From Methylacidiphilum caldifontis (GTDB lineage Bacteria > Verrucomicrobiota > Verrucomicrobiia > Methylacidiphilales > Methylacidiphilaceae), in NCBI RefSeq assembly GCF_017310505.1, contig NZ_CP065957.1, positions 248,001 through 312,000 on the forward strand: DNA of 64,000 bases. Direction: 5' to 3'. A program made the translations under genes and the position numbers. The notes below the pieces were generated by a model. It did not search any database. It was given only the letters and a program-made list of their open reading frames with translations, and was not told where the DNA came from. How positions within the stretch are numbered: the first letter of the stretch is position 1; each line of letters starts with the position of its first letter. Shown here piece by piece: positions 4,081 through 29,962 of the stretch.

Positions 4081-4146
4081 CTGGACATGTTCAAATTTTA
4101 TAGTAACGCACAACTCTGCGCAACTCTTTAACCAATAATCAAAGCT
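4081..4146 (+). repeat. Dispersed ~65-bp repeat, copy 1
   Basis: It begins CTGGACATG and ends GCAACTCTTT-A-ACCAA-TAAT-CAAAGCT. It matches positions 37045-37109 at both ends, with a diverged middle. Both copies sit at the edge of GC-rich transposon-like debris and shortly before a plus-strand gene. On the minus strand copy 2 reads an open 'ALIVGQRVADRYGFN' segment, so the repeat may be a remnant of a mobile-element gene. Confidence 0.5.
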
Positions 4147-4217
4147 CTTTTTCTTTTTATACAAAAAGTAAAACTTCATGTGTTTTATAAGTTACTGGTA
4201 TTCTCGTACTTACAACA

Positions 4218-4233
4218 TGGCATACTTTTTGCT
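4218..4233 (+). promoter_or_regulatory. Sigma-54 (-24/-12) promoter of tonB
   Basis: TGGCAT-ACTTT-TTGCT matches the RpoN consensus TGGCAC-N5-TTGCW, with the invariant GG and GC separated by ten bases. The predicted transcript start is near 4244, one to four bases before the two possible tonB ATG codons (4245 and 4248), so the message would be essentially leaderless. Three more sites of the same type occur in this window before nitrogen genes. Confidence 0.75.
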
Positions 4234-4244
4234 TTATATTTATA

Positions 4245-4943
4245 ATGATGGGAAAAATCGTTTATCAAATCGCCTGCTCCTTATCTAGAGACAAGCTTAT
4301 TTTTGGCATTTGTCTTTTTCTTGCTGCCAGTGTTCATGGGTTAATCGCCTTAGTCTCTCTTTCTCATAAAGATATAGCGGAAAAAACAGAAGGTCTATAT
4401 TCTACTCAAAGTGATTCTTCTTCTTTTGTTGATCTTGTCAGTGCTCCAGAATCTCCTTTTTTGACTTCCCCCTTATTGAAAAATGAAGAGCCAAAGATTT
4501 CCCTCCCTTCCCCCTCCATGCCTCAGAATCATACTGCTCCACTAACTCTAAATAAAACTCAAATTATTCAGAAAAAACAAGGGATACATTCCGAAGCTAA
4601 AGGTAACACACCCTGTTTAGCTCGGAAGGACTATAAAGAATACAATTTATCGACAAGCTTTCTTTCTCCTCCCCCCTATCCTTATGAAGCCAGACTCCAC
4701 CACATGGAAGGGACAGTTGTGATCATGCTCGATATTCGCCAAGGGAAGATCGTTTCTTCGAGGATTGTCCGTTCTTCCGGCCATAGCCTGCTTGATATTA
4801 CTGCCAAGCATTGGATCGATACCCATTGGAAATTTCCTTCGCATATAAGCCGAACTGTAATAGAATCTATTACTTTTGAACTTGAAAATTCTTCTCCACC
4901 TATTAATGAGAAATATTATCAAGCCAGTTATCTTCCTAGATAA
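4245..4943 (+). CDS. tonB: TonB-family energy transducer
   Basis: This 232-residue protein has TonB architecture. A short cytoplasmic N-terminus is followed by a membrane anchor (~residues 18-38, 'LIFGICLFLAASVHGLIALV'), a Pro/Ser-rich periplasmic spacer and a C-terminal TonB domain (~142-215). The domain has the conserved 'PPPYPYEAR' entry, 'GTVVIMLDI' and 'SSGHSLLDITAKHWI' with a following 'W-K-F-P'. TonB couples the inner-membrane proton gradient (with ExbB-ExbD, not in this window) to outer-membrane receptors. It is led by a sigma-54-type promoter and followed by two secreted proteins. Its likely client, by regulation, is the receptor of the nitrate operon at 16.4 kb; this is inference. 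Confidence 0.8.
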   Translation: MMGKIVYQIACSLSRDKLIFGICLFLAASVHGLIALVSLSHKDIAEKTEGLYSTQSDSSSFVDLVSAPESPFLTSPLLKNEEPKISLPSPSMPQNHTAPLTLNKTQIIQKKQGIHSEAKGNTPCLARKDYKEYNLSTSFLSPPPYPYEARLHHMEGTVVIMLDIRQGKIVSSRIVRSSGHSLLDITAKHWIDTHWKFPSHISRTVIESITFELENSSPPINEKYYQASYLPR

Positions 4944-5039
4944 AGAAATATTTTAGCTCTTTTTACTTTTCTTACAGTTTATATCTTTATTTTCTTATTG
5001 ATCAGCATCCTTTTTTCAATTATTGACCTATTCATTTAC

Positions 5040-5633
5040 ATGTCTTGGTTATTAAACTTACAGCTAGCAAGGCTTATCTTCCTTCTGCTCTTTTTTCTTT
5101 TATTACCTTGTTTTTTCTTTTTTAACTTAAACCAGCGGGCTGTTGCAGCACCCTTAAAAGAAAAAATGGGTTCTCTGGCTGAAAAAGAAACTACAAAATC
5201 AACTGAACCCGATAGAATGCTTCTGAAGGTCCAAAGACTTCGTTCTAAAGCAATTCAAAAAAAAGGGATCTGCCCTTCAAATCTTTGGGTCTACGGGAAA
5301 TTTGAAGCTCAAGATAGTCCTAAAGATGGACTAATCGTCTGTCTTATAGCTGGGGATCGGACAAAAAAGATTGTCGGCTCTTCAGGAATGGCGGTGGGAG
5401 CAGGGATCATATTTTGGCCTCTAATCGCTGTTCCCGCTTTTTTTAGCAGTCAACACCTAGATCATGTTATTTTTATTAACCACACCCATTGTCCTCCGAT
5501 TAAAAAAAAATCCCTTCTTTACATTTCACCTTCCTCTCCCGCAAAAGTTCTTGTCAACATGAAAACCGATGTCGGTTATCACTTGATGGAACTTGAACTC
5601 GTTTCTCCACCAGCGGTGATGTCAATGGACTAA
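5040..5633 (+). CDS. Secreted or membrane-anchored protein of unknown function
   Basis: I place the start at ATG 5040 (M-S-W-L-L-N) rather than the TTG at 4998, because it puts a strongly hydrophobic export segment (~residues 10-30, ending A-V-A-A-P) at the N-terminus. The mature part has a 'NLWVYGKFEAQD' block, a Gly-rich hydrophobic stretch ('GSSGMAVGAGIIFWPLIAVP'), an 'HTHC' sequence and a final 'SPAKVLVNM...LMELELVSPP'. The 'LW-YG' and 'PAKV...PP' blocks recur in the next gene, so the two appear paralogous. It lies 96 bases after tonB and 3 before the next gene, probably in one transcript. No known family was recognised. Confidence 0.65.
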   Translation: MSWLLNLQLARLIFLLLFFLLLPCFFFFNLNQRAVAAPLKEKMGSLAEKETTKSTEPDRMLLKVQRLRSKAIQKKGICPSNLWVYGKFEAQDSPKDGLIVCLIAGDRTKKIVGSSGMAVGAGIIFWPLIAVPAFFSSQHLDHVIFINHTHCPPIKKKSLLYISPSSPAKVLVNMKTDVGYHLMELELVSPPAVMSMD

Positions 5634-5636
5634 ATC

Positions 5637-6155
5637 ATGAAAAAAAGTCTTTTTTTTCTCTTGGGACTCTTCTTTTCTATGACTCTATGTTATTCTCTGG
5701 CTTCAGAAGCCTCTACAACGCTTAAAGAATATAAAAAATTAGGCTTTAGCAAAGAAAACTCACATTTAGTTCCTATTGAAGAAGTCCCTAAGTTAGCAAA
5801 CATACAAGGAGAGCTTCGAGAAAATCTCTGGTCTTATGGAGAACTTTCTTTTAAAGCAATTATCGCTCCTGAAGTCATTGAGGCCACACCGATTCACTCG
5901 AGTTTGGCTGATATTGAACCTCCTCCCAAAGACCAATCGAAAAAAGCTTCACAACAGTCAAAAACCTTTGTTTTGATCGTTAGTCCCAAAAAATCACTGA
6001 GCCAGCTTATAAAAAAAGCGCCAAAGATTTTCTCTATCTCTGCTACAACACCTGCAAAAGTTGCCGCTATTGCCCAAACTTTAGATAAAAATTTTATAAT
6101 TACTCTGGTCACGATCGAACCTCCTCATATTCCCTTAAGGCTAAGGCCACCTTGA
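5637..6155 (+). CDS. Secreted protein, paralogue of the preceding gene
   Basis: This 172-residue protein has a clear signal peptide (M-K-K-S then a hydrophobic core to about residue 23, cleavage near A-S-E-A). It shares with its upstream neighbour the motifs 'NLWSYGEL' and 'ISATTPAKV' and the 'ITLVTIEPP' ending, but lacks the internal hydrophobic segment. The function is unknown. Its place behind a TonB gene suggests an envelope role, perhaps as a periplasmic partner of TonB-dependent uptake. The spacing suggests translational coupling. Confidence 0.65.
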   Translation: MKKSLFFLLGLFFSMTLCYSLASEASTTLKEYKKLGFSKENSHLVPIEEVPKLANIQGELRENLWSYGELSFKAIIAPEVIEATPIHSSLADIEPPPKDQSKKASQQSKTFVLIVSPKKSLSQLIKKAPKIFSISATTPAKVAAIAQTLDKNFIITLVTIEPPHIPLRLRPP

Positions 6156-6742
6156 GGTTGAAGCCAAAGGGTTCTAAAGGAGCTATTGTTTTCCTCACCC
6201 GTGCTGTTCCCTTCCACTTTTATCTTTTCAGCCTCTCAGAAGGGGCTATCCCTCTTCTAGGGGCGACTGGCTAAAGCAACCTTAAAAGCGCATCAGAGAT
6301 CAACCAAGGCTTTCCTTCCTCCTCTTTTGTCGCTTGCTTTATCCACCTTATCGTTTATCCCTTCCGGATATTCTTCCGTGGACGCCGTGGACCCGGCTGA
6401 AGGAGATTCTGCTCGAGAGGTTTTGCCGCAAGTGCGGGACACCGCCCGATTGGGAACCCGGCTCAAGGTACTGTTCCGGGGCGGACGACTCCAGGTACCA
6501 GACTACCGTAGCAGATGGAGGCGAAGCGGGAGCGCCAAATGGCACCACCGTGGCAGCGTCGGCGGAGAACCCGCCGCCGATGCGTTGTGAACATGCCGGT
6601 TAACCGGAGAACGAAACGGCCAAGGCAATCCAGGGATTTACCATGAGTAAAACCATGGCAAAAAAGACGCGCTCAGACAAGCGTGAGCATGTTTAAGAAT
6701 GTTTTGAGGAACAGAAGGAACCTTTTAAAACATCTAGAATAT
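6156..6742. other. Gene-free region with a GC-rich relic (about 6360-6660)
   Basis: Composition changes sharply to GC-rich between about 6360 and 6640 and returns to AT-rich on both sides. One plus-strand frame here (6334-6603) encodes a Cys-containing stretch ('RFCRKCGTPPDWEPG') with no recognised family and poor coding character. Several hairpins occur: GGCGG-AGAAC-CCGCC near 6564, the perfect palindrome CCGGTTAACCGG near 6597-6608, and GCTCA/TGAGC near 6672. I read it as a remnant of a GC-rich mobile element, perhaps of the IS605 type seen elsewhere, but could not prove it. Confidence 0.4.
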
Positions 6743-7579
6743 CTATTTTTTATAAGTCAACACTCTACCCCATGTGCTTTTCGTTCCCCAAAGCCCAGAT
6801 CTTAGACATTCCAACTGCACGATCTGGCTATGGTCAACAAAAAGATTAACCTCTGGGCCATAATCCTTGACATACCAGGAAAAGACTTCCGGATCAGCCG
6901 CTTCAAACATGAGGGTTTCTAGCCCTAGTTGATCAATAAATTGCGCGACCACTTCTCTTCTCCATGGACTGACGTTTTCGGTTATTCCTTCTGATTCAAT
7001 CATAATGAGATAAGCCCCCGCTTCCAGAAGTCTTTTAGCTTGTTTTATTGCCCACTGTGGACTTTTTGTGCCTTCAGCAGCTAGCTCTTCGGATTTTGTT
7101 GCTCCTCCAGCTCCAAATTGGATACCCACTTCAGGTTTTGCTTTTAAACCCGCCTTTTGGACCTTTTCCACAAGCCGCAAAATATCGTCAAAAGGAATCG
7201 TAATAAAGCCGGCAGAAACTTCGATGATATCAAACCCTACTCTTTTGCATTCTTCAATGTATTTGTCTACCATATCTGGACCATAGGTCAGCACCCTTTC
7301 AATGAATCCTCCTGTAGAAACCCAAACGTTATAGGTATGGCAAAGGCTAATGATTTCTTTGAGAGCTCTTTTGGGCATGAGTGCAAAAGAACCGCCTGCA
7401 AACTTAAGGATGTCGATGTAGCTTCCAACCGTTTCAAGAATGTCTTCCAAGTAATGGATACCTAAAGGGGTATAATAAGGACCTCGGATTTCGGTAATCC
7501 CTACTCTTCTAGGCTTGGGTTTTCTTTCATTGAGAGGAATAAAACCAAAAGCACGTTCATTTTTTTGTTCGTCATTCAT
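6743..7579 (-). CDS. comA: Phosphosulfolactate synthase-like protein (ComA family)
   Basis: This 278-residue protein fits the ComA/HSA32 family. It has 'RGPYY' near the N-terminus, 'DILKFAGGSFALMP' (~57-70), 'STGGFIERVL', 'GFDIIEVSAGF', 'KPEVGIQFGAGGA' and 'LIMIESEGITENV', all barrel-strand ends of this TIM-barrel group. ComA adds sulfite to phosphoenolpyruvate to give phosphosulfolactate, the first step of one coenzyme M/sulfolactate route. No comB or comC lies nearby, so the real product in this organism is open. The LysR gene lies 78 bases upstream on the same strand and could be cotranscribed. Confidence 0.8.
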   Translation of the reverse strand: MNDEQKNERAFGFIPLNERKPKPRRVGITEIRGPYYTPLGIHYLEDILETVGSYIDILKFAGGSFALMPKRALKEIISLCHTYNVWVSTGGFIERVLTYGPDMVDKYIEECKRVGFDIIEVSAGFITIPFDDILRLVEKVQKAGLKAKPEVGIQFGAGGATKSEELAAEGTKSPQWAIKQAKRLLEAGAYLIMIESEGITENVSPWRREVVAQFIDQLGLETLMFEAADPEVFSWYVKDYGPEVNLFVDHSQIVQLECLRSGLWGTKSTWGRVLTYKK

Positions 7580-7657
7580 GAATTGCCCCTTTATCTTTTT
7601 AGTTTTTCTTAATTAAACTTCTCCTTTTTTAAAGCGCATTCCAAAAAAAAGAGAACT

Positions 7658-8569
7658 TTAGTTTATTTTCTTTGGAATAATCATCTTACAGAGCTCCAAA
7701 AAAGTATTCTCCAAAAGGCTAAGTTTTCTGCCTAGCCTATAGGCAAAAACCCATTTTCGGGTTATCGGCTCAGGAATCAAAGGAAGATTGATAAGTTTGC
7801 CTTTCTTCAGTTCTTCCTTAACAATCCAATTGGGAAGAACACCAATGCCTAGACCCATCTTAACCATTTCCTTAATCGCTGCGGTTTCGGCAAGCTCCAC
7901 GAAACTTTTTGGATAGAGGGATGACTCAGCAAAAGCCCTTTGAAGTATATGGAAAGTTGTATCATTCTTTGTTTTTATAAGGTAATGGGCCTGCTCAATC
8001 TCTTTTCTAGAAATTTCTTTTTTTCGTGTCCAGGGATGAAAGGAATTAACCAAAAAAAGGAGGTTATCCATCGAAAGTTCAATCATAGCTAGGCTTTCTA
8101 GGAAAGAGAGAGGTTTGATTGTAATCGCAAAGTCTACCTTTTTTTGATCAACCAGCTCTAAGGCAAGAGGGGAATCAGCTGGTTCGATAGCAAAAAGACA
8201 ATCGGGAAAACTTTCCTGAAATTCTCTATAAAGCTGAGGCACAAAATATTGGCAACTTAATGAACTTGTAGCAAAGACAATTTTTTTTGGCCCTTCCCGC
8301 TTCAAATTTTCGATGTCGATCCTAGCTTTTTCCATTCCCGCCAGTATTTCTTGAGCATAGCCTAAGAATTCCCTTCCAATAGTCGTAAGGGAGGGGTTCT
8401 TTCCCTCCCTGTCAAAAAGCCTGCAACCTATTTCCTCCTCAAGAGATTGAATCGATCGACTTATAGCCGGCTGACTCATATGCAAAGATTTCGCTGCTTT
8501 AGAGAAACTCTCGGATTGAGCAGCAATAACAAAAATATAGAGTAGGCGGCTGTCCAACGGATGATTCAT
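7658..8569 (-). CDS. LysR-family transcriptional regulator
   Basis: This 303-residue protein has an N-terminal winged helix-turn-helix (~residues 5-64: 'LYIFVIAAQSESFSKAAKSLHMSQPAISRSIQSLEEEIGCRLFDR' spans the motif) and the usual two-lobed effector domain (~90-295). Length and layout are standard. It is divergent from the NasS-like gene, with a 125-base shared promoter region holding a sigma-54-type site, so it may regulate nitrate assimilation, the downstream comA-like gene, or itself. Some LysR proteins (Cbl, NAC, CysB) act on nitrogen or sulfur genes, but the effector cannot be read from the sequence. Confidence 0.85.
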   Translation of the reverse strand: MNHPLDSRLLYIFVIAAQSESFSKAAKSLHMSQPAISRSIQSLEEEIGCRLFDREGKNPSLTTIGREFLGYAQEILAGMEKARIDIENLKREGPKKIVFATSSLSCQYFVPQLYREFQESFPDCLFAIEPADSPLALELVDQKKVDFAITIKPLSFLESLAMIELSMDNLLFLVNSFHPWTRKKEISRKEIEQAHYLIKTKNDTTFHILQRAFAESSLYPKSFVELAETAAIKEMVKMGLGIGVLPNWIVKEELKKGKLINLPLIPEPITRKWVFAYRLGRKLSLLENTFLELCKMIIPKKIN

Positions 8570-8633
8570 ACATTTTTATTATATGTTTTATTCAAATTAT
8601 AAATATCATGCAATAATAATCTGAAAAATCTTT

Positions 8634-8649
8634 TGGCACCAAAGCTGCT
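8634..8649 (+). promoter_or_regulatory. Sigma-54 (-24/-12) promoter of the NasS-like gene
   Basis: TGGCAC-CAAAG-CTGCT fits the RpoN consensus with the GG-N10-GC spacing intact; only the first T of TTGC is changed to C. The start site would be near 8660, leaving a ~35-base leader with a good ribosome site (AAGGAAGGA) before ATG 8695. Confidence 0.65.
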
Positions 8650-8694
8650 TGTTATCAAGAAAGCTCTTATTGGTCTGAAGCGATAAGGAAGGAA

Positions 8695-9747
8695 ATGTTG
8701 AGAACAAGATCAAAAATAACCATTGGCTATCTTCCTCTAATCGATTGTGCGCCGCTTGTGGTCGCTTTAGAGCGAGGGTTGTTTAAAAAGTGGGGTTTTG
8801 ATGTTTGCTTAAGTCCTGAACCAGGATGGGCGACGATACGAGATAAGATTGTATATGAAGAGCTTGATTTTGCACAGGCCGTTTGTGGATTGCCTCTTGT
8901 TCTTAACTACGGTTTACGTTCCATTCCCTATAAATGTACAAGTGCCATGGTCCTAAATCTCAACGGTAATGCGATCACTCTCTCAAAAAGGCTAAGCGAC
9001 GTTGAAGGGTGTAACCAGGAAGAAATAGCCCATGTTTTGAAAGCCAATAGCAATTATCCTCTTCTTTTTGGTGTTGCTTCTTTTTTTTCAAGCCACTACT
9101 TTCTTCTTCTACGCTGGCTTAAAAGAATAAAATTGGATCTACAAAAGGATGTCCGTGTTGTTGCTCTTCCTCCACCTCAAATGCCTATCCACTTAAAACA
9201 AGGGTTTATTGATGGCTACTGTGTAGGCGAGCCCTGGAATTCGGTTGCTGTTTTCGAAAAAACCGGAATCTGTGTGGCAACTAGCCTTGATCTTGCCTCG
9301 GGGCATCCAGAAAAGGTCCTGTTGGCTAATGAAAAGTATACGGAAAAGAAAAAAGAAGAACATGTGCGGCTTGTGAGTTGTTTAATCGAAGCTTGCCAGT
9401 GGACGGATAATCCTGCACATAGGGCTGAGCTTTTAGAAATGCTCTATTATGGCCACTGGATCAATCAGCCGCTTGAGATCATTCGTCATAGCCTTGTGGG
9501 CCCTTTTCGATTAGGTAAAAACACGTTTATTCCGGGTCGGGCTTTTCATGTTTTTAATGCCGAAAAGGCTAACCAACCTTCCAAAGAAAAGGAAAACTGG
9601 ATAATCAATGAAATGAAGGCAGCCAAGCTTCTTCCCGAACAATCTACAAATGGGATTAGCTTTTTTAGACTCTCTATCTATCTTGAAGCCTTAAAACTCT
9701 TAAGTTCAGAGGAGAAAAAGTCTTTTGTTCCATTCCCTCTGCTTTAA
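8695..9747 (+). CDS. Nitrate-binding NrtA/NasS-like protein without signal peptide
   Basis: This 350-residue protein resembles the periplasmic substrate-binding proteins NrtA/CmpA ('ITIGYLPLIDCAPLVVALERGLF', 'GYCVGEPWNSVAV' in the second lobe, 'VLLANEKYTE') but has neither a signal peptide nor a lipobox. That places it with NasS, the cytoplasmic nitrate/nitrite sensor that in other bacteria sequesters the antiterminator NasT. No NasT/ANTAR gene is nearby; a LysR gene sits opposite. It precedes the nitrate reductase operon by ~400 bases, has a sigma-54-type promoter, and starts after a clear ribosome site. No permease or ATPase genes accompany it, which argues against an ABC transporter. Confidence 0.75.
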   Translation: MLRTRSKITIGYLPLIDCAPLVVALERGLFKKWGFDVCLSPEPGWATIRDKIVYEELDFAQAVCGLPLVLNYGLRSIPYKCTSAMVLNLNGNAITLSKRLSDVEGCNQEEIAHVLKANSNYPLLFGVASFFSSHYFLLLRWLKRIKLDLQKDVRVVALPPPQMPIHLKQGFIDGYCVGEPWNSVAVFEKTGICVATSLDLASGHPEKVLLANEKYTEKKKEEHVRLVSCLIEACQWTDNPAHRAELLEMLYYGHWINQPLEIIRHSLVGPFRLGKNTFIPGRAFHVFNAEKANQPSKEKENWIINEMKAAKLLPEQSTNGISFFRLSIYLEALKLLSSEEKKSFVPFPLL

Positions 9748-9766
9748 AAGATTGCAATGCCATTTC

Positions 9767-10041
9767 TTAGTTATGATCAGAAGTCATTACTAAGGCAGCT
9801 ATCCCCTAGATTTTTGTCCAAGCTTGTCGTGCTTCTTCGCTAAAGTCTTGACCCAAATATTGCTGGATGGACTGAAGAAGGCAGGGTTAACAATGGGATA
9901 ATGGAAACTTTCGACCCCATATTCTTTATGACGCTTTCCTAGGTTTTGTAAATTAGGAATAAGCTCGTTCATATTGTTCAAGCCATCAACAAGAACGTAG
10001 CGACTCTTTTTAGAAATCCTATAAGCAATCAATAAATTCAA
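9767..10041 (-). pseudogene. Decayed globin gene fragment
   Basis: The minus strand reads a globin middle, 'ELIPNLQNLGKRHKEYGVESFHYPIV', with the E-helix and proximal-His region. After a frameshift near 9860 it continues 'QYLGQDFSEEARQAWTKI', a TAG where Tyr is expected, then 'GIAALVMTSD' and a stop at 9767. The N-terminal helices are missing. At least one frameshift and one nonsense change make it a pseudogene. It lies between the nitrate sensor and reductase genes, opposite to both, and is a single-domain relative of the intact globin-Roadblock gene at 19 kb. Confidence 0.75.
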
Positions 10042-10060
10042 AATCTATTAATATATATAT

Positions 10061-10079
10061 CTATACATTATATGCATAG
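10061..10079. promoter_or_regulatory. Palindromic operator candidate before nitrate reductase
   Basis: CTATACAT-TAT-ATGCATAG is a near-perfect inverted repeat (7 of 8 positions) in a very AT-rich 120-base stretch upstream of the reductase gene. ATGCAT-type sequences recur at 10165 and 10213. It could be a LysR or other regulator site. No sigma-54 element is present in this gap. Confidence 0.35.
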
Positions 10080-10163
10080 ATTATATGTATAAAATCTTTT
10101 ATAAATTTTTTTAAAAGATCATCTTTAAGTATCTTTTTTGCTTTCTTTATAAAACAAGAATAT

Positions 10164-12308
10164 ATGCATGCAAATATGATAAAAGATATATTATATGCAA
10201 ATAATGCATATACTCACTGTCCTTTTTGCGGTTTGCAGTGTGCCATAGAAATTGTTCAGACTGGAAAAGAGTTTGAAATTAAACCTAAATATTTTCCGAC
10301 AAACAAAGGACAAATCTGTGCTAAAGGTTGGAATGCAGGCGCATTAATTAACCATCCTGACCGTTTGCTCAATCCCCTTGTTCGCTACAATAAAAATGAA
10401 GGTTTTAAGTTTTCTTCCTGGGAAACAGCCATTGATCTCTGTGCAAAAAAATTATCTACAATCCGTGCCCAATGGGGAAGCGATTCGATCTTTGTTTATG
10501 GTAGTGGCAGTTTGTCCAATGAAAAAGCCTATCTTTTAGGAAAATTTGCTCGAGTTGTTCTGGGTACTTCTTTGATCGACTATAACGGCAGATATTGCAT
10601 GTCCTCAGCTTCTAAAGCCCTAGAAATGGCTTTGGGGATAGACCGAGGGCTATCCTTCCCTGTCGAATCCATAGCTCAGACCGATCTACTCATCGTTGTG
10701 GGAGCCAACCCCTTAGAAACGATGCCTCCTCTAAAAAGCCATATCGAAGAATTTAAAAAAAGAGGAAAAAAATGGGTTGTTATAGATCCCAGGTTTACTC
10801 TGACTGCACAACAGGCTGATATCCATCTTAAAATTAAGCCGGGCAGTGATCATATCCTCGCTAACGGCTTGCTCTGGCTACTTGTTCATCAGAATAAAGT
10901 CGATTGGTCTTATATTCGAAGCTACACTACAGGGTTTGAAGAAGTTTTAGATAGCCTTTATTCTTTCTGGCCCAGCCAAGTCGAAGCTCTTACAGGGATA
11001 TCTCAAGACTTGCTTCAGAAAACTGCTGAACTTTTGGGATCCCACTCCAATATCATTATTTTAACGGGAAGAGGTTGCGAACAACAGTCTCACGGAGTCG
11101 CTAACGTTCTTTCATATATAAATCTTTCTCTAGCTCTAGGACTTGTCGGAAAGCCTTACAGTGGATTTGGCACACTTACCGGCCAAGGGAACGGACAGGG
11201 GGCAAGAGAAATGGGACTAAAATCCAACCAACTTCCCGGTTGCCGGAGTAACTGGAATTTCAATGATCGGAATTTTATCGCCAAGCTCTGGCAGATCGAT
11301 CCCAAGACCCTTCCTCTTCCAGGAAAAACTATCACCGAAGTGATCGAAAACTCCGGAATGAATGGATCAATCAAAGCGATGATCGTTATGGGAGCCAATC
11401 CTCTGGTCTCTTCAGCTCATAACTCACGGCTAAAAGCGCTTTTTTCATCATTGGAATTCCTAGTCGTATGCGATTCATTTCTTTCTGAAACAGCAGCAGT
11501 AGCCGACATGGTTTTACCTTCGGCTCTTTGGGCCGAAGAAACCGCAACAGTGACCAACTTGGAAGGTCGCATTCTCCTTAGGCCAAAGATCTTAGCTGCC
11601 CCGACAAACGTTAAGACTGATCTTGAAATTATCCATCTGCTCGCTGAAAAGCTTGGTTTTGCTCAAGGGTTTCCACCCGATCCTTATAGCATATTTGAAG
11701 AAATACGTAGGGCTACAGCGGGAGCAAAAGCAGATTATTATGGTATAACCTATTCAAGGCTTGCCCGAGGTGAAGAGCTCTATTGGCCCTGTCCCTCTCT
11801 TTTTAGCCAAGGTCAAAAAGAACTATTCCTATCCAAACATTTTCCCACAGAAACCCGAAAAGCACAGTTTTACCCTGTTGCACTGCAGCCCCTTGTAGAA
11901 GAACCCGACTCTCAATATCCCTTTTTTTTAACAACCGGCAGAACCCTTTACCATTATCAGACCGCTGTTCAAACAAGACGACTTTTAAAACTCCACCAAA
12001 AAGAACCAACCCCGTTTGTCGAAATGCATGCCTCGGTTGGCCGGCAGCTGGGAATTAAAGAAGGACACTATGTCAAGGTCGAAACAAGAAGAGGAGTTGG
12101 CTACTACAAAGCTAAGTTCTCTAGCAAACAGCGTCTAGATACCCTTTTTGTTCCTTTTTACCCTCACGAAAAAGCTGAAGCAAACAGCCTAACGTTGCCC
12201 AACTTTGACCCCCTTTCTTACATGCCTTCTTTCAAGCTTTGTGCGGCACGAATCGAAGCCGTTGGTGAACCTCAACAACAATCTGATAACCAAAAAAAGG
12301 ATAAATGA
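10164..12308 (+). CDS. narB: Assimilatory nitrate reductase catalytic subunit
   Basis: This 714-residue molybdopterin oxidoreductase reduces nitrate to nitrite in the cytoplasm. An N-terminal [4Fe-4S] site is visible (Cys19, Cys22, Cys26, Cys52). The probable Mo ligand is Cys145 in 'NGRYCMSSAS'. 'VVGANPLETMPPL' and 'GANPLVSSAHNSR' bind the bis-MGD cofactor. A C-terminal MGD-binding barrel follows (~590-700, 'TTGRTLYHYQTAVQTRR'). The length matches cyanobacterial ferredoxin-dependent NarB; the C-terminal [2Fe-2S] extension of NasA is absent. Two starts are possible (ATG 10164 or 10176). Its stop overlaps the nirB start (ATGA), so the operon is translationally coupled. Confidence 0.9.
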   Translation: MHANMIKDILYANNAYTHCPFCGLQCAIEIVQTGKEFEIKPKYFPTNKGQICAKGWNAGALINHPDRLLNPLVRYNKNEGFKFSSWETAIDLCAKKLSTIRAQWGSDSIFVYGSGSLSNEKAYLLGKFARVVLGTSLIDYNGRYCMSSASKALEMALGIDRGLSFPVESIAQTDLLIVVGANPLETMPPLKSHIEEFKKRGKKWVVIDPRFTLTAQQADIHLKIKPGSDHILANGLLWLLVHQNKVDWSYIRSYTTGFEEVLDSLYSFWPSQVEALTGISQDLLQKTAELLGSHSNIIILTGRGCEQQSHGVANVLSYINLSLALGLVGKPYSGFGTLTGQGNGQGAREMGLKSNQLPGCRSNWNFNDRNFIAKLWQIDPKTLPLPGKTITEVIENSGMNGSIKAMIVMGANPLVSSAHNSRLKALFSSLEFLVVCDSFLSETAAVADMVLPSALWAEETATVTNLEGRILLRPKILAAPTNVKTDLEIIHLLAEKLGFAQGFPPDPYSIFEEIRRATAGAKADYYGITYSRLARGEELYWPCPSLFSQGQKELFLSKHFPTETRKAQFYPVALQPLVEEPDSQYPFFLTTGRTLYHYQTAVQTRRLLKLHQKEPTPFVEMHASVGRQLGIKEGHYVKVETRRGVGYYKAKFSSKQRLDTLFVPFYPHEKAEANSLTLPNFDPLSYMPSFKLCAARIEAVGEPQQQSDNQKKDK

Positions 12309-14749
12309 TGAAAAAAGAAAAACTGCTTGTGATTGGAGCGGGTATGGCCTCCGTCAGGTTCCTTGAAGAACTTGTCGAAGCTGGAGGGACTCAAAAATAC
12401 GAGATTACCCTGATCAGCAAGGAGAAAAATATCGGCTATAACCGCATTTTACTCTCTTCTCTTTTAGCCGGAGAAGTGGACTTCCAAGGATTGGATCTAA
12501 AAAGCCCTGCATGGTTTCAAGAAAAAAAGATTACTGTCAAAGCGGGCTCTGAAGCTGTACTTATCGATACTGGATCAAGGCAGCTATGGACAGACAAGGA
12601 AAAAATTCCCTACGATAAACTTTTCTTAGCTACAGGTAGCATTCCCTTTATTCCCCCTCTAACCGGTCTCTATGACGAAGCGGGAAAACGAATTCATGGT
12701 GTTTTTACTTTTAGGACTATTGATGATTGCCTGAATATTCTTGAGCATCTTTCCGGGGCAACAAAAGCGGTCGTTATTGGAGGTGGTCTTTTGGGCATAG
12801 AAGCTAGCTATGGCCTATGCAAAAAAGGGCTGCAAACCACTCTTGTTCATCTCATGGATCATTTGATGGAAAAACAGCTCGACAGCCTTGCAGGCTCTCT
12901 TTTGAAAAAAGAACTCGAAAAACTGGGTATCCAAGTATTGCTCAAAACAAAAACGCGTCAGCTCAAAAAGATCGGCAAAAAAATTAAAATCGAATTTGAA
13001 AATAACAAAGAGATTCTTGCCGACCTTGTTGTCATAGCTACCGGGATCGTTCCCAACTGTTCGTTAGCTAAGAAATCGGGCATTGCAGTGAACAAGGGCA
13101 TACTCGTCAATGCTCAAATGGAATCGGTTTCTCATCCAGGTATTTTTGCTGCAGGAGAATGTATTGAATTTGAAGGACAAACCTATGGATTAGTTAACGC
13201 GGCATGGCAGCAAGCGACGATTGCCGCTAAATCCCTTTTGGGTTCTTCCTTGTCATATCCTTACCGGGGAACCGTTCCTGTGGCTCGTTTAAAAGTAGCA
13301 GGTATCGATCTTCTTTCTTTTGGTCATATAGAAGCTGAACAAAACGAAGAAGTGGTCCTTTATACAGACTCAAAGCAAGCCCTCTATCGGAAAATATTAA
13401 TCGAAGGGGAAAAAATAACCGGGGGTATTTTTCTTGGATCATCCCAAAGAGCTTTAGAAATCCTTCATTTTTACGAAAAAAACCTTCCCCTACCCTGTTC
13501 TCCTGAAGAGTTCCTTATCGAGGAATCAACGGGCAGAAAAGATGAAGAAATAGAAAATAGACCCGATGACTTCCAGCTATGTAACTGCAACGGGGTGACT
13601 AAAAAAGAAATCATCGAACTGATTCAAAAGGGCTGCTCATCCCTTAAGGAGCTTATCACGATGAGTCGTGCAGGAACAGGTTGCGGGAGTTGTAAAACCC
13701 TTGTTCAAAGACTTTTTGAAAAAACAACGAAGAACACAACTGTTGATGACCCCTCTATTCATTACTACGTAAGCTCTATTCCTTTAAGCAAAAAAGAACT
13801 GATCGAGGAGATAAAAAAAAGGAAACTCCAGAGTGTTTCTGCCGTTTTTAATGCCTTTGCGGAAGGCAAAGAAGATGCTCATTCTAAACCTGCTCTAGCC
13901 AGTCTTCTTAAGATGGTCTGGGGCAAAGCTTATAAAGAAGAGCCCGATTCCCGATTCGTCAACGATCGGGTTCATGCCAATATTCAAAAAGATGGGACCT
14001 ATTCGGTTGTTCCCCGCATGTATGGGGGAATAACAACTGTCGAACAATTAAGAAAAATTGCTGATGTAGCCGAAAAGTACCATGTACCCATGATCAAAAT
14101 AACAGGTGGACAACGCATCGATCTTCTGGGTCTAAAAAAGGAGCAGTTACCAGCCGTATGGAAAGAGCTCGGAATGAGAAGTGGCCATGCATACACGAAA
14201 GCCTTTAGGACTTGTAAAAGCTGTGTTGGCACGGATTTTTGTCGATTTGGAGTAGGCGATTCAACTACTCTGGCGATCGCAATTGAGAAGAGGTTTCAAG
14301 GTATTGAATGCCCAGCAAAACTCAAGCTTGCTGTAAGTGGCTGTTCGAGGAATTGTGCAGAAGCCACAACTAAAGATATCGGTGCGGTTGCTATAGGCAT
14401 AGGATGGGAAATTTATGTCGGAGGAGCAGCCGGCTCCAAAGTAAGAGCAGGGGATCTTCTAGCGGTAGCCAAGGACCAACAAGAAGTGCTTAAGCTTATT
14501 GGTCGTTTTATTCAATATTACCGCGAAAATGCAAAATATGCTGAAAGAAGCTATGGCTTTGTAGAGCGGCTAGGGATTGAAAAGATAAGATCAGCTGTTG
14601 TTTCTCCTTCACCTGAAGAAGCGACTCGACTAGAGCAGGAAATAGAAAAAACGGTCGAGGCTTATGTTGATCCCTGGCAAGCTGCACAAAAAGAACAATT
14701 TCCACATCAATTTGAAGCTCTAGCTCAAGGCACAAACAACTTCTCTTAA
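12305..14749 (+). CDS. nirB: Assimilatory nitrite reductase large subunit
   Basis: This 814-residue protein reduces nitrite to ammonium with NAD(P)H. Domains in order: an FAD/NAD(P) oxidoreductase with 'VIGAGMASVRFLEEL' (~6-20) and a second dinucleotide fold 'VVIGGGLLGIEA' (~155-166); a BFD-like [2Fe-2S] domain (~424-465, C-N-C-N-G and T-G-C-G-S-C); and the sulfite/nitrite reductase siroheme-[4Fe-4S] module (~530-760). The module's ligands are in 'CKSCVGTDFC' and 'SGCSRNCAEA'. Two adjacent ATGs (12305, 12308) exist. nirD follows after 20 bases. Confidence 0.92.
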   Translation: MMKKEKLLVIGAGMASVRFLEELVEAGGTQKYEITLISKEKNIGYNRILLSSLLAGEVDFQGLDLKSPAWFQEKKITVKAGSEAVLIDTGSRQLWTDKEKIPYDKLFLATGSIPFIPPLTGLYDEAGKRIHGVFTFRTIDDCLNILEHLSGATKAVVIGGGLLGIEASYGLCKKGLQTTLVHLMDHLMEKQLDSLAGSLLKKELEKLGIQVLLKTKTRQLKKIGKKIKIEFENNKEILADLVVIATGIVPNCSLAKKSGIAVNKGILVNAQMESVSHPGIFAAGECIEFEGQTYGLVNAAWQQATIAAKSLLGSSLSYPYRGTVPVARLKVAGIDLLSFGHIEAEQNEEVVLYTDSKQALYRKILIEGEKITGGIFLGSSQRALEILHFYEKNLPLPCSPEEFLIEESTGRKDEEIENRPDDFQLCNCNGVTKKEIIELIQKGCSSLKELITMSRAGTGCGSCKTLVQRLFEKTTKNTTVDDPSIHYYVSSIPLSKKELIEEIKKRKLQSVSAVFNAFAEGKEDAHSKPALASLLKMVWGKAYKEEPDSRFVNDRVHANIQKDGTYSVVPRMYGGITTVEQLRKIADVAEKYHVPMIKITGGQRIDLLGLKKEQLPAVWKELGMRSGHAYTKAFRTCKSCVGTDFCRFGVGDSTTLAIAIEKRFQGIECPAKLKLAVSGCSRNCAEATTKDIGAVAIGIGWEIYVGGAAGSKVRAGDLLAVAKDQQEVLKLIGRFIQYYRENAKYAERSYGFVERLGIEKIRSAVVSPSPEEATRLEQEIEKTVEAYVDPWQAAQKEQFPHQFEALAQGTNNFS

Positions 14750-14769
14750 TCCCAAACGGAGTCATAAAA

Positions 14770-15138
14770 ATGAAATCCAATGGACAGATTCCTAAGAAAG
14801 GATTTCCCCTTTGCCCTTTAAACGAACTTGTTCCCTGTGTTGGTAGAACTTTTAAGCTAGGGGAACTAAAAATTTCTCTATTTAAAACAAGGTCAGACAA
14901 AACAGTGGCTGTGCAAGCCCTCTGCCCTCATCGTGGGGGACCCCTGAGTGAAGCCCTTTGCGATGAACAGGTTCTGATATGTCCTCTTCACGGCTACTCC
15001 TTTTCGCTAGAAACGGGCAACTGTACGATTTCGGATAAATACCAGCTCAAAACGTATCCTACTTTTGTGATTAACGGTTGGATCTATCTGGACTTATCCA
15101 CTTCTCCCAACCTTTTCTTATCAAATGATCAATCATGA
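14770..15138 (+). CDS. nirD: Nitrite reductase small subunit, Rieske type
   Basis: This 122-residue Rieske [2Fe-2S] protein has ligands Cys52-x-His54 ('CPHRGG') and Cys71-x2-His74 ('CPLHG'). True NirD proteins often lack these residues; their presence points to a ferredoxin-like small subunit that still carries a cluster. It would feed or stabilise NirB. Its stop overlaps the start of the next gene by ATGA. Confidence 0.85.
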   Translation: MKSNGQIPKKGFPLCPLNELVPCVGRTFKLGELKISLFKTRSDKTVAVQALCPHRGGPLSEALCDEQVLICPLHGYSFSLETGNCTISDKYQLKTYPTFVINGWIYLDLSTSPNLFLSNDQS

Positions 15139-16421
15139 AAAAAAGACTACTTATCTTTCTTCATAACAAGGCTATTTTAACACTCTGCTGCTCTTTTCTC
15201 TATTTTGACATCAGCTTTGCTATCTGGGTCATCCTGGGAGCTGTAGGCACTTTTATTTCCGCTGAAATTCGGCTTAATCCCGTTCAAAAAGGCCTTGTGG
15301 TCGCCCTTCCTATCCTCTCTGGAAGCCTTCTTCGGATTTTTTTTGGCATAGCGGAATCAGCCCTCGGAGGGAAAAAAACAGCCCTTATCGCTATGAGTTT
15401 AACAGCCATTCCCCTATTTTGGGGGGGATTATTTGCTCACAGTCTTAATGAAATTTATGGGATTGGGCTTCTTTTGGGTATTGCCGGTGCTAGTTTTGCC
15501 GTAGCCCTTCCTATGGCTAGCCGGTGGTTCCCACCTAAAAACCAGGGACTTGTCTTAGGCCTAACTGGGAGTGGAAACAGTGGAACTCTTCTTTGTACCT
15601 TTTTTGGTCCGCTCATTGCTCAGGCTTATAGCTGGCATGCTGTATTTGGTTTTTTTCTTATCCTCTTAGCGATTGTCTTTTTTGTCTTTTTTTTACTGGC
15701 CGAAGATGCTCCTGCTAACCATAGAGAAAAATTTAACATCCAAGCTATTTTCTTGACCCTTCAACAAAAGCGAGCCTGGTTGTTTGCCCTTTTATACAGC
15801 CTTTCCTTTGGAGGTTTTGTAGGTTTTTCTAACTACCTAGGATTTTTTTTAGTAGATGAATACAAGCTTGAAAAAGTCGATGCGGGAAAGATACAAACCC
15901 TGCTCATTGCTTCAGGAAGCCTTTTAAGACCACTTGGAGGTGCTTTGGCCGATAAGGTAGGGGGATCAAAACTGCTTTTTGTGCTGTTTGCCCTAGCTAC
16001 ATTGCTCGGTTCTCTTCTCTCTTTTTATTTTCCATTCCTAATCGAAATCACTCTTCTTTTCTTTTTGATGGGTTGCCTGGGTCTTGCCAATGGAGCGGTT
16101 TTCCAACTTGTAGGAACTCAGCTGGCTAACCAAATTGGCACAATATCGGGGGTTGTAGGAGCTGCTGGAGGCATGGGAGGATTCTTTTTGCCCATTTTAT
16201 TTGGGAAAATCAAGGAACATTCGGGATCATGTGCTACTGGATTTGGGCTCTTTTCATCTTTACTTTTTCTTGGAGGATGCCTAACCCTCTGTCTCGTTTT
16301 TTCGGAAAGAAAAAAGAAAATCTTAAGGATTGAAGTTACGGATAGTACAAAAAATTTTCCTTTCTCACTTCCCTTTTTGTTGAGCTCCCAAGACGAAGGC
16401 ACTGAAAAGAAAGAAAAATGA
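15135..16421 (+). CDS. narK: Nitrate/nitrite transporter of the major facilitator superfamily
   Basis: This 428-residue inner-membrane protein has about 12 membrane spans. Two nitrate-signature glycine motifs are visible: 'GLTGSGNSGTLL' (~136-147) in the fifth span region and 'GAAGGMGGFFLP' (~337-348) in the eleventh. A Gly/Lys loop 'ESALGGKKTALI' follows span 2, as in MFS proteins. It imports nitrate for the reductase encoded upstream. The gene is coupled on both sides by four-base ATGA overlaps (nirD before, TonB receptor after). Confidence 0.88.
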   Translation: MKKRLLIFLHNKAILTLCCSFLYFDISFAIWVILGAVGTFISAEIRLNPVQKGLVVALPILSGSLLRIFFGIAESALGGKKTALIAMSLTAIPLFWGGLFAHSLNEIYGIGLLLGIAGASFAVALPMASRWFPPKNQGLVLGLTGSGNSGTLLCTFFGPLIAQAYSWHAVFGFFLILLAIVFFVFFLLAEDAPANHREKFNIQAIFLTLQQKRAWLFALLYSLSFGGFVGFSNYLGFFLVDEYKLEKVDAGKIQTLLIASGSLLRPLGGALADKVGGSKLLFVLFALATLLGSLLSFYFPFLIEITLLFFLMGCLGLANGAVFQLVGTQLANQIGTISGVVGAAGGMGGFFLPILFGKIKEHSGSCATGFGLFSSLLFLGGCLTLCLVFSERKKKILRIEVTDSTKNFPFSLPFLLSSQDEGTEKKEK

Positions 16422-18835
16422 TAAAGACTAAAAGATTCTATTATTGGATCCTCTTTATTTTACCTTCCCTATATTGGGTTGGAACTTTTTCTTTAGCTGA
16501 AGATAATACCGAAGAAAGCCTCCCCGAAACAACTCTAAAGGTCAAAGGAAAAATACCTATAGAAAAAGATGAACAATCCTCTTTTTTACTTTCACCTGTC
16601 AAGCAGTTTGGACCAATAGATGTCTTAGACAGTCCAAGATCGGTCTTCATCATAGATAAGTCTCTTATTCAAGCAACAGGGATGGGTCTTCAACCCTTTT
16701 TAGACCCTCTTAGTATGACTTTTTTAGTTCCTTCAGCCTATTCTTCGGTCAACTACGGCTTAGGTATTGCCCCATTTTCAAGAGGCTATCCTTCTACCCC
16801 TTATATAAATGGTATTGAAATGAATGTCCAAAACGGGGCTTTCCAGGGGATACCCATGAACTGGAACATGATCGACTCTTTTGATTTTATAGAAGGCCCA
16901 GCTCAAGCTGTTTTTGGAGCTACCCAAACTAGTTCAGGAGTTACAAACTACCTGACCAAGCAGCCCTATTTCGATTCTTTTCGATCTTCAACCCAATTTA
17001 CCTTGGGGATGTATGAAAAGTACCTGTGGTTGGTAGATCTAGGAGGCCCGATCCGGCCGAATTTAGCCTACAGGCTTAGTTATCAGGGTATTGAGAATGG
17101 AAACTACTACCAATATGTACATAACGACCAACAAAATGTTTATTTTAGCCTCGGATTTCATCCTTCAGAAACTTATCGTGCTGATTTTATGGCTGATCTT
17201 GGAACCTATGATTATACCCCCCTTTTCATGTGGATGAATAGGCCAACTGAAGCATTGATCACAACTGGTCTTTATCCTACAGGTTCTTTGCCTTCTTCTT
17301 TGATCAACATTGGAACAGTAAACAATCCTCCTTTTTCTCTTTATGCCGGCCAACTTGAGCCGATAAGTCGTAGAATCCTTCTACAAAACCCTGAAGGCGG
17401 TGGCCGCGCAGTCCTTGGCATGCTTCAATTTGTTCAAAAAATCACAGTTAGTGACCAGCTTACTTTTTTGGATAACACCTTGTTATGGTACAACCGAGAA
17501 AATCTCTTGCAACCCCCTGTCTACTATTGTCTTTCCAGTGCTGGTGATTATGAAATTGGTCATCGTACAGAATGCCTTCTTGATCTCTATTTTAGCCAGA
17601 ATAATTTTCCTCTTACTCTACATGACCTCGTGGATAGTGGAATCGAATGGCACATTCAGAGAAACTTAGATTACGTGGCAAGTTCTTTTTTTGGTTCAAA
17701 TGCTTGGGATATGGTTTTAAGCCAGCCTATAAGCTGAAACATGAACAATTCTACTTTTTTTCGTCAAAATATTAAAAATCCCCATGCAAAGTTTGGCGGT
17801 CTATGGCCGATTCCTGGAGCCCCACAAGGTTATTTTTTTAATCCGTTAAACGGCTCGGCAGGTTCAACAGACTCTTTTTTTTATTCAATCGCCCCTTTTA
17901 TCCAGCAGCTGATCTCCCTTAACCCACATTTTGACCTTTCTTTAAGTCTAAGAGACACAACTTATTTTGTCCAAGCGACCACTCCGCCGGGAACACCATT
18001 CATTCTTTTCAAAGAACTATCAACCACACAATCCGATCCACTCATTACAGTAGGTCCAAGCTTTAAACCTCTAAAATGGTTAAATATATATTTTAGCTAT
18101 ACCCTGGAATATACAACCGATGCAGCGGTCCTTGGGGGTTATTCCCCTGTATTTGATTCCCAATCCTTTCACCAGCAGGATGTTCTTTATGAAGCGGGGA
18201 TTAAATGTAACCTTATCAAAAACAAGCTTTTTGTGAGCGGCGATATCTTTTCTCAAGGGCTATGGCTAGACAATATCGGTCTTAATCCTACAAAAACCAC
18301 TGTCAATGGAATTGAATTTAATGTTTCCTATTCCCCTTTTCAATACTTGCTCTTTCGGATCGGCTTTGCATACCAATATGGAAGCGAAAACTGGACAGAT
18401 GTCAGTCATGGTCCCCTAGAAACTCAAACATATTCAACCGATTATGCCCAGCTTTTCTCTTTAGCTCTCGATAACAATAGTGTTTTTCCTCCCGGTCTCT
18501 ATCCCTTCATTGGTTGGCCCAAAGAGCTTGTCGATGGCGTTATCAACTACAGTCCTACAACCGGTCTTGGCTTTACTCTTGGAGTCAGCTGGTTTAGCTC
18601 CCAATTTCTTGGTTATAACTATTCAACTACTATTCCTGCCGAGTTTATAATTCGCAGTCGGATCTATTATAATCTTCCTCATTGGCAGTTTGCTCTCTAT
18701 TTTTATAATGTTACAGACGAAAAGTATTGGCTACCTTTCGGTGTGGGCATACAATCAGCAAGAATATTTGACTACGCAAACATCGTCCCTGGAATGCCCT
18801 TTTGGATCCAAGGCAGTTTGAGCTATTTTTTTTAA
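16418..18835 (+). pseudogene. TonB-dependent outer-membrane receptor with in-frame TGA
   Basis: Codons 1-439 (to TGA at 17735-17737) and the frame after it (ATG 17741 to 18835) are in the same phase and together form an ~805-residue receptor. Visible parts: a signal peptide; a TonB-box-like 'ETTLKVKG'; a plug (~60-200) with 'DVLDSPRSVFIID', 'RGYPSTPYINGIE', 'EGPAQAVFGATQTSSGVTNY'; a long barrel; and a C-terminus ending in Phe. The TGA probably replaces a TGG Trp codon ('LSQPIS-stop-NMNNSTF'). The gene is coupled to narK by an ATGA overlap. The ligand is unknown; nitrate-linked uptake of a metal (Mo, Fe) chelate or a nitrogen compound is inference. It may be a recent null, a sequencing error, or two separate polypeptides. 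Confidence 0.8.
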
Positions 18836-18986
18836 GCTTTTTTCCCCCTTAGTTGATGGCCAATTATCATATGCATGTTATAAAATCTAATTGATAAGAT
18901 TAAGATCATCCTTGCAGAAAATTAAGCAATCTTATATATCTTTACCTGCAAAAATTATAATTGTTTTAACTCTAAAACCCCCTTTT

Positions 18987-19811
18987 ATGGCCCCTGAAGA
19001 AATCAAGTTGATTCAGAAAAGTTGGCTGCACGTTATCGACAAAGCTGATGAAGCGGGTCTACTCTTTTATAGAAGACTTTTTGATGTTGAACCTAAAGTA
19101 CGCCCTCTCTTTAAAGTAGATATCGAAAAGCAGGGCAGAAAACTTATGGATGTCCTGAATTGGATAGTTTTGAATCTTCAAGATGTCGATACCGCCCTAG
19201 ATGCAGCAAGGGAGTTAGCTCGTCGACATGTCAAATATGGGGTTAAAGTCGAGCATTATCCGTTGATTGGCCATACTCTCATATGGACGTTAAGAAAGAT
19301 GATGGGCTCTGAGTGGACAAGGCAACTTGAGCAGCTATGGACCGCCGCATATGAGGCTTTGTCCCAAATCATGGTCGAGGAACACAAAAAAGTCCAATCG
19401 TTCGAATATCTTACCCGGTATCTTGAACAGGAACTTTCCGAAGTGATCAACGGAGTGGTTGACGCTTTTCCTGAGCTCGTAGGGATTGCTATCTCAACCA
19501 CTCAAGGGGCAACAGTAAGCCGATGTTCTGCTGAGCTCTATTCTAACATTATCGGTTCAGTCGTCAGCTCAGCCCTTGGACATGCCCATCGGCTATGTGA
19601 AACAGCCGATGTGGGTCTCCTTGAAGAGATAAAGATCACAGGAAATCAACTGCATCTCTATGTTTGTCAAGTTGATAGGGATGCGGCCATAGGTATTTTA
19701 TATCCCCCTCAAACTACAGAAGGAATTATTACTCTTTTAATCCGTAGTGCCGCACAGAAAGTCAAGGCACTCATCTCTACATTTCGATTAAAAGAAATAA
19801 ACTCCCGCTAA
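18987..19811 (+). CDS. Globin fused to Roadblock/LC7-like domain
   Basis: I start at ATG 18987 (M-A-P-E-E-I), since the upstream extension to 18891 is not globin-like. Residues 1-135 are a globin: A helix 'IKLIQKSW', CD region 'KVRPLFK', E helix 'ARELARRHVKYGV', probable proximal His90 in 'VEHYPLIG', and a closing 'LWTAAYEALSQIM'. Residues ~150-265 form a Roadblock/LC7-type alpha-beta domain ('VDAFPELVGIAISTTQGATVSR', 'LYVCQVDRDAAIGIL'). This fusion is known to me as HGbRL of Methylacidiphilum infernorum, described as a putative globin-coupled sensor. Placed after the nitrate operon, it could sense NO or O2 or relay redox state; that is inference. Confidence 0.85.
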   Translation: MAPEEIKLIQKSWLHVIDKADEAGLLFYRRLFDVEPKVRPLFKVDIEKQGRKLMDVLNWIVLNLQDVDTALDAARELARRHVKYGVKVEHYPLIGHTLIWTLRKMMGSEWTRQLEQLWTAAYEALSQIMVEEHKKVQSFEYLTRYLEQELSEVINGVVDAFPELVGIAISTTQGATVSRCSAELYSNIIGSVVSSALGHAHRLCETADVGLLEEIKITGNQLHLYVCQVDRDAAIGILYPPQTTEGIITLLIRSAAQKVKALISTFRLKEINSR

Positions 19812-19825
19812 ATTATCCAAAGCTT

Positions 19826-20479
19826 ATGGAAAGAATTCTTGAAGAACAGCTCATGGCCGATCCTATTCAAGTGATGGCTTATGCCCAAGCCGACTTTTCC
19901 ATACCCCATCAAGCTGTAATCGATCGGTTCACAGATCTTTTCCCCCACTTTAAAGATGGAGTTGTACTTGACATGGGTTGTGGGACAGCGGACATTGCTA
20001 TTCGCTTTGCCAGGAGATATCCTCAAGCAAAAATAATTGGCGTGGACGGATCTTTAGCCATGCTTTCTGTCGCTCAAAAAAGAATAGACGAGAACCATCT
20101 TTGCTCTTCCATAAAACTTATACAAGGAATATTTCCCAACTGGACCTATCCCCATTTATTCGACGTCCTTATCAGTAACAGCTTGCTTCACCACCTTCCC
20201 TCTCCAAAAGAGTTATGGACATCCTTAAGAAAACACGCAAAACTTGGCTCTTGTGTCCTTATCATTGATCTGGTTAGACCTGAGTCAAAACAACAAGCTC
20301 ACTTTCTTACGGAAACCTACACCCAAGGAGCCCATCCTCTTTTAAAAAGAGATTTTTATAACTCTCTTCTGGCTTCCTTTACTCTTGAAGAAATAAAGCG
20401 CGAAATCGTTGCTGAAAAACTCCCATTTAGAGTTGAACAAATTTCTGATCGCCATCTCATGATCTATGGAATCTTTTAA
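19826..20479 (+). CDS. Class I SAM-dependent methyltransferase
   Basis: This 217-residue Rossmann methyltransferase has motif I 'VLDMGCGTADIAIRFA' (~48-63), the acidic strand-2 end 'IIGVDGS', and 'DVLISNSLLHHLP' (motif IV and post). The protein ends with a small lid region. The substrate is unknown. It starts 14 bases after the globin-Roadblock stop, so cotranscription is likely. Confidence 0.8.
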   Translation: MERILEEQLMADPIQVMAYAQADFSIPHQAVIDRFTDLFPHFKDGVVLDMGCGTADIAIRFARRYPQAKIIGVDGSLAMLSVAQKRIDENHLCSSIKLIQGIFPNWTYPHLFDVLISNSLLHHLPSPKELWTSLRKHAKLGSCVLIIDLVRPESKQQAHFLTETYTQGAHPLLKRDFYNSLLASFTLEEIKREIVAEKLPFRVEQISDRHLMIYGIF

Positions 20480-20488
20480 AACTAACTG

Positions 20489-20507
20489 CTATCTACCGGA
20501 TAGTTTT
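20489..20507 (+). terminator. Weak hairpin terminator after the methyltransferase
   Basis: CTATC-TACCG-GATAG followed by TTTT lies between the convergent methyltransferase and rlpA genes. The stem is only five base pairs, so the assignment is tentative. Confidence 0.35.
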
Positions 20508-23452: not shown

Positions 23453-23468
23453 TGGCATATTTTTTGCT
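23453..23468 (+). promoter_or_regulatory. Sigma-54 (-24/-12) promoter of the PII-like gene
   Basis: TGGCAT-ATTTT-TTGCT matches the RpoN consensus with GG-N10-GC spacing. The start site would be near 23479, 26 bases before the ATG. The gene has no clear Shine-Dalgarno sequence. Confidence 0.75.
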
Positions 23469-23504: not shown

Positions 23505-23885
23505 ATGGATTCCTTCTACAAAATTGAAGTGATCGTCAAGCCCTTTAAACTTGGGGAAATAAGAAAAAACTTATGTACTGAGGATATCCTTTCCATGTCT
23601 ATATATAAGGTTAAGGGATTGGATGAAGAAGAAAACAGAATCGAAAAATACAAGGGAGATGAATATTTTCCTGTGTTGAAGACACATTATAAGCTTGAAA
23701 TATTCGTCAAAAAAAGGAACCTCAAAAAAGTCCTTTTCTCCCTAAGTCATTCTATAAGCACAGAAAAAAACTCTTCTAGTCAGCTATCTATTCTTGCTGT
23801 CGCTGCTGTACAGGAGCTCTCTGAAACTGCCTTTTCAATTCCTCAAAGCAAGCATATGCTCATCAACTTCTTCCTTTTATTTTAA
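23505..23885 (+). CDS. Degenerate PII-like signalling protein
   Basis: This 126-residue protein starts like a PII protein: 'KIEVIVKPFKLGEIRKNL', 'IYKVKGLDE', then a T-loop with 'KYKGDEYFPVLKTHYKLEIFV', in which the Tyr of 'GDEY' aligns with the uridylylated Tyr51. The second half departs: the B-loop T-G-x-x-G-D-G-K is replaced by 'TEKNSSSQ' and the C-terminal R-T-G-E is absent, so ATP/2-oxoglutarate binding of the usual kind is doubtful. It could be a PII variant that titrates or modulates GlnB, AmtB or GlnD, or a decaying copy. The sigma-54-type promoter favours a nitrogen role. Its end overlaps the convergent hydrolase gene by nine bases. Confidence 0.7.
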   Translation: MDSFYKIEVIVKPFKLGEIRKNLCTEDILSMSIYKVKGLDEEENRIEKYKGDEYFPVLKTHYKLEIFVKKRNLKKVLFSLSHSISTEKNSSSQLSILAVAAVQELSETAFSIPQSKHMLINFFLLF

Positions 23886-29829: not shown

Positions 29830-29850
29830 AAATCCATATAATGTGGATTT
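29830..29850. promoter_or_regulatory. Second palindrome between nrdA and amtB
   Basis: AAATCCA-TATAATG-TGGATTT is a perfect 7-bp inverted repeat 51 bases beyond the first palindrome. It could pair with it as a tandem operator for nrdA or serve the divergent amtB. Confidence 0.35.
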
Positions 29851-29934
29851 AATAATGAGAAAATACAATATATTGTGTTATACAAATTTTGAGGATTTAA
29901 AACAACCAAAAAATCCTTTTATTCTTCAAATAAT

Positions 29935-29950: not shown

Positions 29951-29962
29951 TTAAGTGTTTTG

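Follow-up and report, generated by a model that had tools for sequence, protein, structure and literature searches.

The window analysed here, a stretch of 64,000 nt of the Methylacidiphilum caldifontis chromosome (a single contig of 2,254,698 bases), carries a nitrate assimilation operon that runs into a gene for a TonB-dependent receptor. As the preliminary description stated, genes of the nasC, nirB, nirD and narK types precede the receptor; all lie on the plus strand, and the nitrate reductase, NirB, NirD and the nitrate transporter form one tight cluster. Its first member is an assimilatory nitrate reductase at 10164–12308, which scores 706 bits, below the equivalog cut-off of 1100 for the model; NasC-type is a better name for the protein than NarB. 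It is followed by nirB, the large subunit of nitrite reductase (12305–14749; TIGR02374 at 773.8 bits, above the cut-off), a nirD-type Rieske subunit of the same enzyme (14770–15138; profile matches) and a narK-type nitrate/nitrite MFS transporter (15135–16421; TIGR00886 at 249.5 bits, below the cut-off of 311.7). Upstream of nasC, profile matches identify an NMT1-like, nitrate-sensor-like substrate-binding protein (8695–9747, plus strand), which we infer to be NasS-like, and a profile match together with synteny identifies a divergent LysR-type regulator (7658–8569, minus strand). A search for ANTAR (NasS/NasT antitermination) gave no match, but the control likewise gave none. Scans of the operon for sigma-70 promoters and terminators returned counts near those of shuffled sequence. 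Two globin loci lie among or beside these genes. Between the nitrate-sensor-like gene and nasC lies a decayed remnant (9776–10041, minus strand) with an internal stop, a missing N terminus and two frames, at a place where M. infernorum has an intact globin of 133 aa. Directly 3′ of the receptor, a globin gene at 18891–19811 carries a C-terminal part that may be Roadblock-like (Robl_LC7 below the cut-off), and the stretch 5′ of it looks conserved in five Methylacidiphilum species.

Conservation was assessed in five Methylacidiphilum genomes, those of the window species and four congeners; one congener is Methylacidiphilum sp. Yel, and the others (G002, G003 and G004) we take to be M. infernorum V4, M. 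fumariolicum SolV and M. kamchatkense Kam1. The gene order nasC–nirB–nirD–narK–receptor is common to all five genomes and belongs to a longer syntenic block, also present in all five, that runs from a GH57-like gene through tonB, two genes of no known family, a ComA-like gene, the LysR-type regulator and the nitrate-sensor-like gene to nasC, and from the receptor on to a globin and a methyltransferase. The receptor had been said to overlap narK by ATGA, and the overlap is indeed found at 16418–16421 on the plus strand, where the start of the receptor frame overlaps the stop of narK. The adjacency proposed for a search in relatives recurs in 5/5 Methylacidiphilum genomes, ATGA overlap included; the refuting outcome named beforehand, its lack in every relative, therefore did not occur. 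In Kam1, a frameshift or an assembly error breaks nasC into two frames close to the C terminus. As an outgroup we used four genomes of the sister genus, taken to be Methylacidimicrobium; the two longest stretches are informative, and the other two are short contigs. The order in those two stretches is sensor–nasC–nirB–nirD–globin–narK, with a globin inside the cluster between nirD and narK, and no receptor adjoins narK. The nas cluster has been published as conserved among Kam1, SolV and V4, in a main text that describes it without the receptor (PMC6688271).

The receptor frame (16418–18835, plus strand) had been taken as one gene, a reading that has to be revised: an in-frame TGA at 17735–17737 splits it into ORFs of 439 and 364 aa. 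The 5′ part (16418–17737) comprises the signal peptide region, the plug and the initial portion of the barrel, and ends at the premature stop; the 3′ part (17741–18835) holds the remaining barrel and no signal peptide. Read through the stop, the receptor has 805 aa. All four congeners have TGG (Trp) at codon 440, from which the TGA differs by a single G-to-A change. The frame is intact in three of these four (SolV, V4 and Kam1). In strain Yel, a run of A close to the N terminus of the receptor contains a frameshift, which may be either genuine or introduced in assembly. Between M. fumariolicum and M. kamchatkense the receptor displays a dN/dS of 0.163, indicating purifying selection comparable to that on the neighbouring genes. 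Its own-branch dN in the window species (0.071 vs 0.064 in M. infernorum) is not raised, which indicates a recent loss; on this ground we rejected an old pseudogene.

The same features would also be expected if the stop were an error of sequencing or assembly and the receptor intact in the living organism: apart from a single substitution, the 805 codons show neither decay nor acceleration. We consider such an error unlikely, and rank it as less likely than a recent break. In a comparison of 295 genes (104,593 codons) with M. infernorum, the receptor TGA was the sole convincing interior stop, as judged by reading the matches. The remaining raw matches look like spurious antisense or upstream-extended ORFs, and we rejected widespread sequencing error. 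Further, three of the approximately 15 TonB-dependent receptor genes in the genome, including the one in the nas operon, carry Trp-to-stop changes: a receptor at chromosome position 571807 has TGA where three congeners have TGG, and another at 2015907–2018180 has TAG at the position of an invariant Trp771. The stops are enriched in receptor genes (Fisher p ~0.001, a post hoc test in which receptor codons were estimated as 15 × 800), and the sequence contexts of the three changes share no obvious motif. The two additional cases point to preferential loss of receptors rather than random error, suggesting that receptors have been repeatedly and recently lost in this genome.

A premature stop could also leave a working product if it were read through, or if the 3′ half were re-initiated at an ATG, so that a full or split receptor is still made. 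The next ATG does lie 3 bases after the stop, and the 3′ half is free of decay. On the other hand, all congeners have TGG at codon 440, no Rfam element is present in the region 3800–20500, and the 3′ half, lacking a signal peptide, could not reach the outer membrane alone. Cooperation of the halves is thus very improbable, and we rejected it on the missing signal peptide and the TGG of the relatives. Since the change of Trp440 to TGA leaves part of a barrel, the receptor copy in the window genome is probably non-functional. We regard the anatomy of the operon together with the recent loss of its receptor as highly probable.

Pfam has no match in the window receptor itself, and the Plug domain is found in 21 of the 26 aligned family members. 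In a profile search, the plug half of the receptor matches the plug regions of solved receptors, pyochelin- and ferrioxamine-type among them. An AlphaFold model of the read-through protein (pLDDT 70.9, pTM 0.76) superposes on the solved receptors Fiu, FoxA, FptA and the enantio-pyochelin receptor with Z of 33–36 over 584–611 residues. The modelled protein is a genuine TonB-dependent receptor, with a predicted fold nearest to ferric-siderophore receptors, but the fold similarity does not establish its cargo. It is not a FoxA ferrioxamine B equivalog, as it scores 19.4 bits against the curated cut-off of 1300. Residues 37–44 (ETTLKVKG) look somewhat like a TonB box by eye, and the intact congeners retain a KVKG core. 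In the tree, a long stem leads to a single clade, with full support, that unites all five nas receptors.

The tonB gene reported at 4.2 kb is confirmed by a TonB_C match of 37.4 bits (cut-off 24.6) at 4245–4943 on the plus strand. The gene is a divergent tonB, and of the nine TonB_C matches that the genome contains this is one of the weaker. No exbB or exbD lies beside it, and ExbD genes occur only elsewhere in the genome. On its 3′ side are two conserved, probably exported proteins of no known family (4998–5633 and 5637–6155, plus strand), both present in the five Methylacidiphilum species and without a Pfam match; the first has distant relatives inside longer proteins elsewhere in Methylacidiphilum genomes. 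Upstream of tonB is a sigma-54-type site, TGGCATACTTTTTGCT (4218–4233, plus strand). The pattern TGGCAY-N5-YTGCW has four exact matches in the window vs 0.26 expected, and 0 of 100 shuffles reach four. The others, likewise on the plus strand, are TGGCACCAAAGCTGCT before the nitrate-sensor-like gene (8634–8649), TGGCATATTTTTTGCT before a PII-type gene at 23505–23885 (23453–23468) and TGGCATTGTATTTGCT at 29935–29950. The last of these falls within the longest ORF of the ammonium transporter gene amtB (29843–31498, plus strand) and 5′ of its conserved domain; as this domain starts at residue 129, translation probably begins farther downstream.

The site before tonB is conserved in 5/5 species as TGGCAT-N5-YTGCT, with GG and GC at −24 and −12 and correct spacing, while the flanks have diverged; all five species also keep the site before the nitrate-sensor-like gene. 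Across 452 kb of the window genome there are six matches to the pattern, and every one lies at a gene's 5′ end: tonB, the nitrate-sensor-like gene, amtB, two PII genes and a gene for a small outer-membrane-like protein. Five of the six sites in 418 kb of the M. infernorum genome precede matching genes. The genome contains one Sigma54_DBD match (rpoN, 196.6 bits). A scan for NtrC enhancers gave nothing above shuffles, with an enterobacterial consensus that may not apply here. The claim that tonB has a sigma-54-type promoter like those of ammonium and nitrate-sensor genes is therefore borne out by equivalent sites at amtB and the nitrate-sensor-like gene, and holds well: the predicted promoter stands out as a conserved footprint and is one of a small set of promoters related to nitrogen. 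Because so little sequence separates the site from the listed tonB ATG, the transcript would be nearly leaderless in the window genome. Another member of the set, at chromosome position 226932, precedes the gene for the 234-aa outer-membrane-like protein and is also found in M. infernorum (1073249); this protein is a candidate further member of a nitrogen-limitation regulon. No sigma-54-type site occurs before nasC or the receptor, which leaves a common switch with tonB unsupported.

Published expression data from SolV touch parts of this set. The nas genes are up 9- to 45-fold on nitrate, and the receptor and tonB are not among the genes in the expression tables consulted (PMC5623727). In N2-fixing cells, amtB rises from 343 to 1143 RPKM and the nitrate-binding-protein gene from 28 to 117 RPKM, increases of about three- to four-fold, and tonB is not reported (PMC3404531). 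The rise of these two genes is consistent with a nitrogen-limitation regulon. Our literature search found no account of a receptor in a nitrate operon or of a sigma-54-controlled tonB, and the receptor goes unnamed in the Methylacidiphilum papers searched.

Taken together, these observations make a nitrogen-linked route of metal-chelate import plausible for the genus Methylacidiphilum. A siderophore-type TonB-dependent receptor would have become the gene after narK in the nas operon, a placement that would probably lead to its expression during growth on nitrate. It would most likely serve in active uptake of a metal chelate across the outer membrane, iron first and molybdenum second, and the metal would supply NasC (Mo, Fe-S) and NirB (siroheme, Fe-S); this class of cargo is suggested by the fold and by the metal needs of the two enzymes. 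Energy would come from TonB, for which the upstream gene behind a predicted nitrogen-limitation (sigma-54) promoter is one candidate and others in the genome are further ones. In the window genome the receptor would then have been inactivated recently by the change of Trp440 (TGG) to TGA. Co-transcription with the operon, the partnership of tonB and receptor, and the cargo are steps that we infer. In the acid conditions under which Methylacidiphilum grows, iron dissolves fairly well, which counts against an iron-chelate role, and the nas operon of the sister genus, lacking the receptor, counts against a role in nitrate use. The loss in the window species and the frameshift in Yel suggest that cells can do without the receptor, at least in certain conditions. 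For the anatomy, the recent loss and the metal-chelate role as one reading, we put the chances as evenly balanced.

The main rival is that a member of a large receptor family, one that expands and contracts, landed behind narK as a passenger, with a cargo unrelated to nitrogen and a place in the operon that means little for its function. We take this possibility seriously without favouring it. Receptor genes are numerous in these genomes (about 15 here and at least 19 TonB-like paralogues in V4, PMC2474590), three of those in the window genome bear Trp-to-stop changes, and the sister genus has no receptor beside narK; yet a mere passenger sits poorly with retention of the same place and the same ATGA overlap in 5/5 species under purifying selection equal to that on the neighbours. 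A stricter form of the metal-chelate reading, in which the nas-encoded receptor and the sigma-54-controlled TonB constitute a nitrogen-dedicated route importing a molybdenum (or iron) chelate for nitrate reductase, we think improbable. Such a route, if true, would be a dedicated outer-membrane importer for molybdenum supply. More generally, a nitrogen-linked role in metal-chelate import would tie active outer-membrane metal uptake to the nitrogen source in an extreme acidophile, and an orphan group of receptors would gain a testable cargo class. As the receptor is broken in the window strain, functional work belongs in SolV, V4 or Kam1.

Among known systems, bacterial nas operons likewise keep nitrate reductase, NirB, NirD and a NarK-type transporter tightly together, with a nitrate-sensor-like protein upstream; the TonB-dependent receptor overlapping narK sets Methylacidiphilum apart. 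With ferric-siderophore receptors (the enantio-pyochelin receptor, FptA, FoxA and Fiu) the window receptor shares the plug-and-barrel fold over nearly the whole model, but it has only ~15% identity to them, sits in a nitrate operon and is broken. The closest parallel on the side of energy supply is offered by TonB2 and TonB4 of Anabaena sp. PCC 7120, TonB-like proteins linked to nitrogen metabolism, whose mutants show reduced nitrogenase activity and a changed metal content (PMC8597729). Unlike in Anabaena, the link in Methylacidiphilum is a conserved, predicted sigma-54-type promoter.
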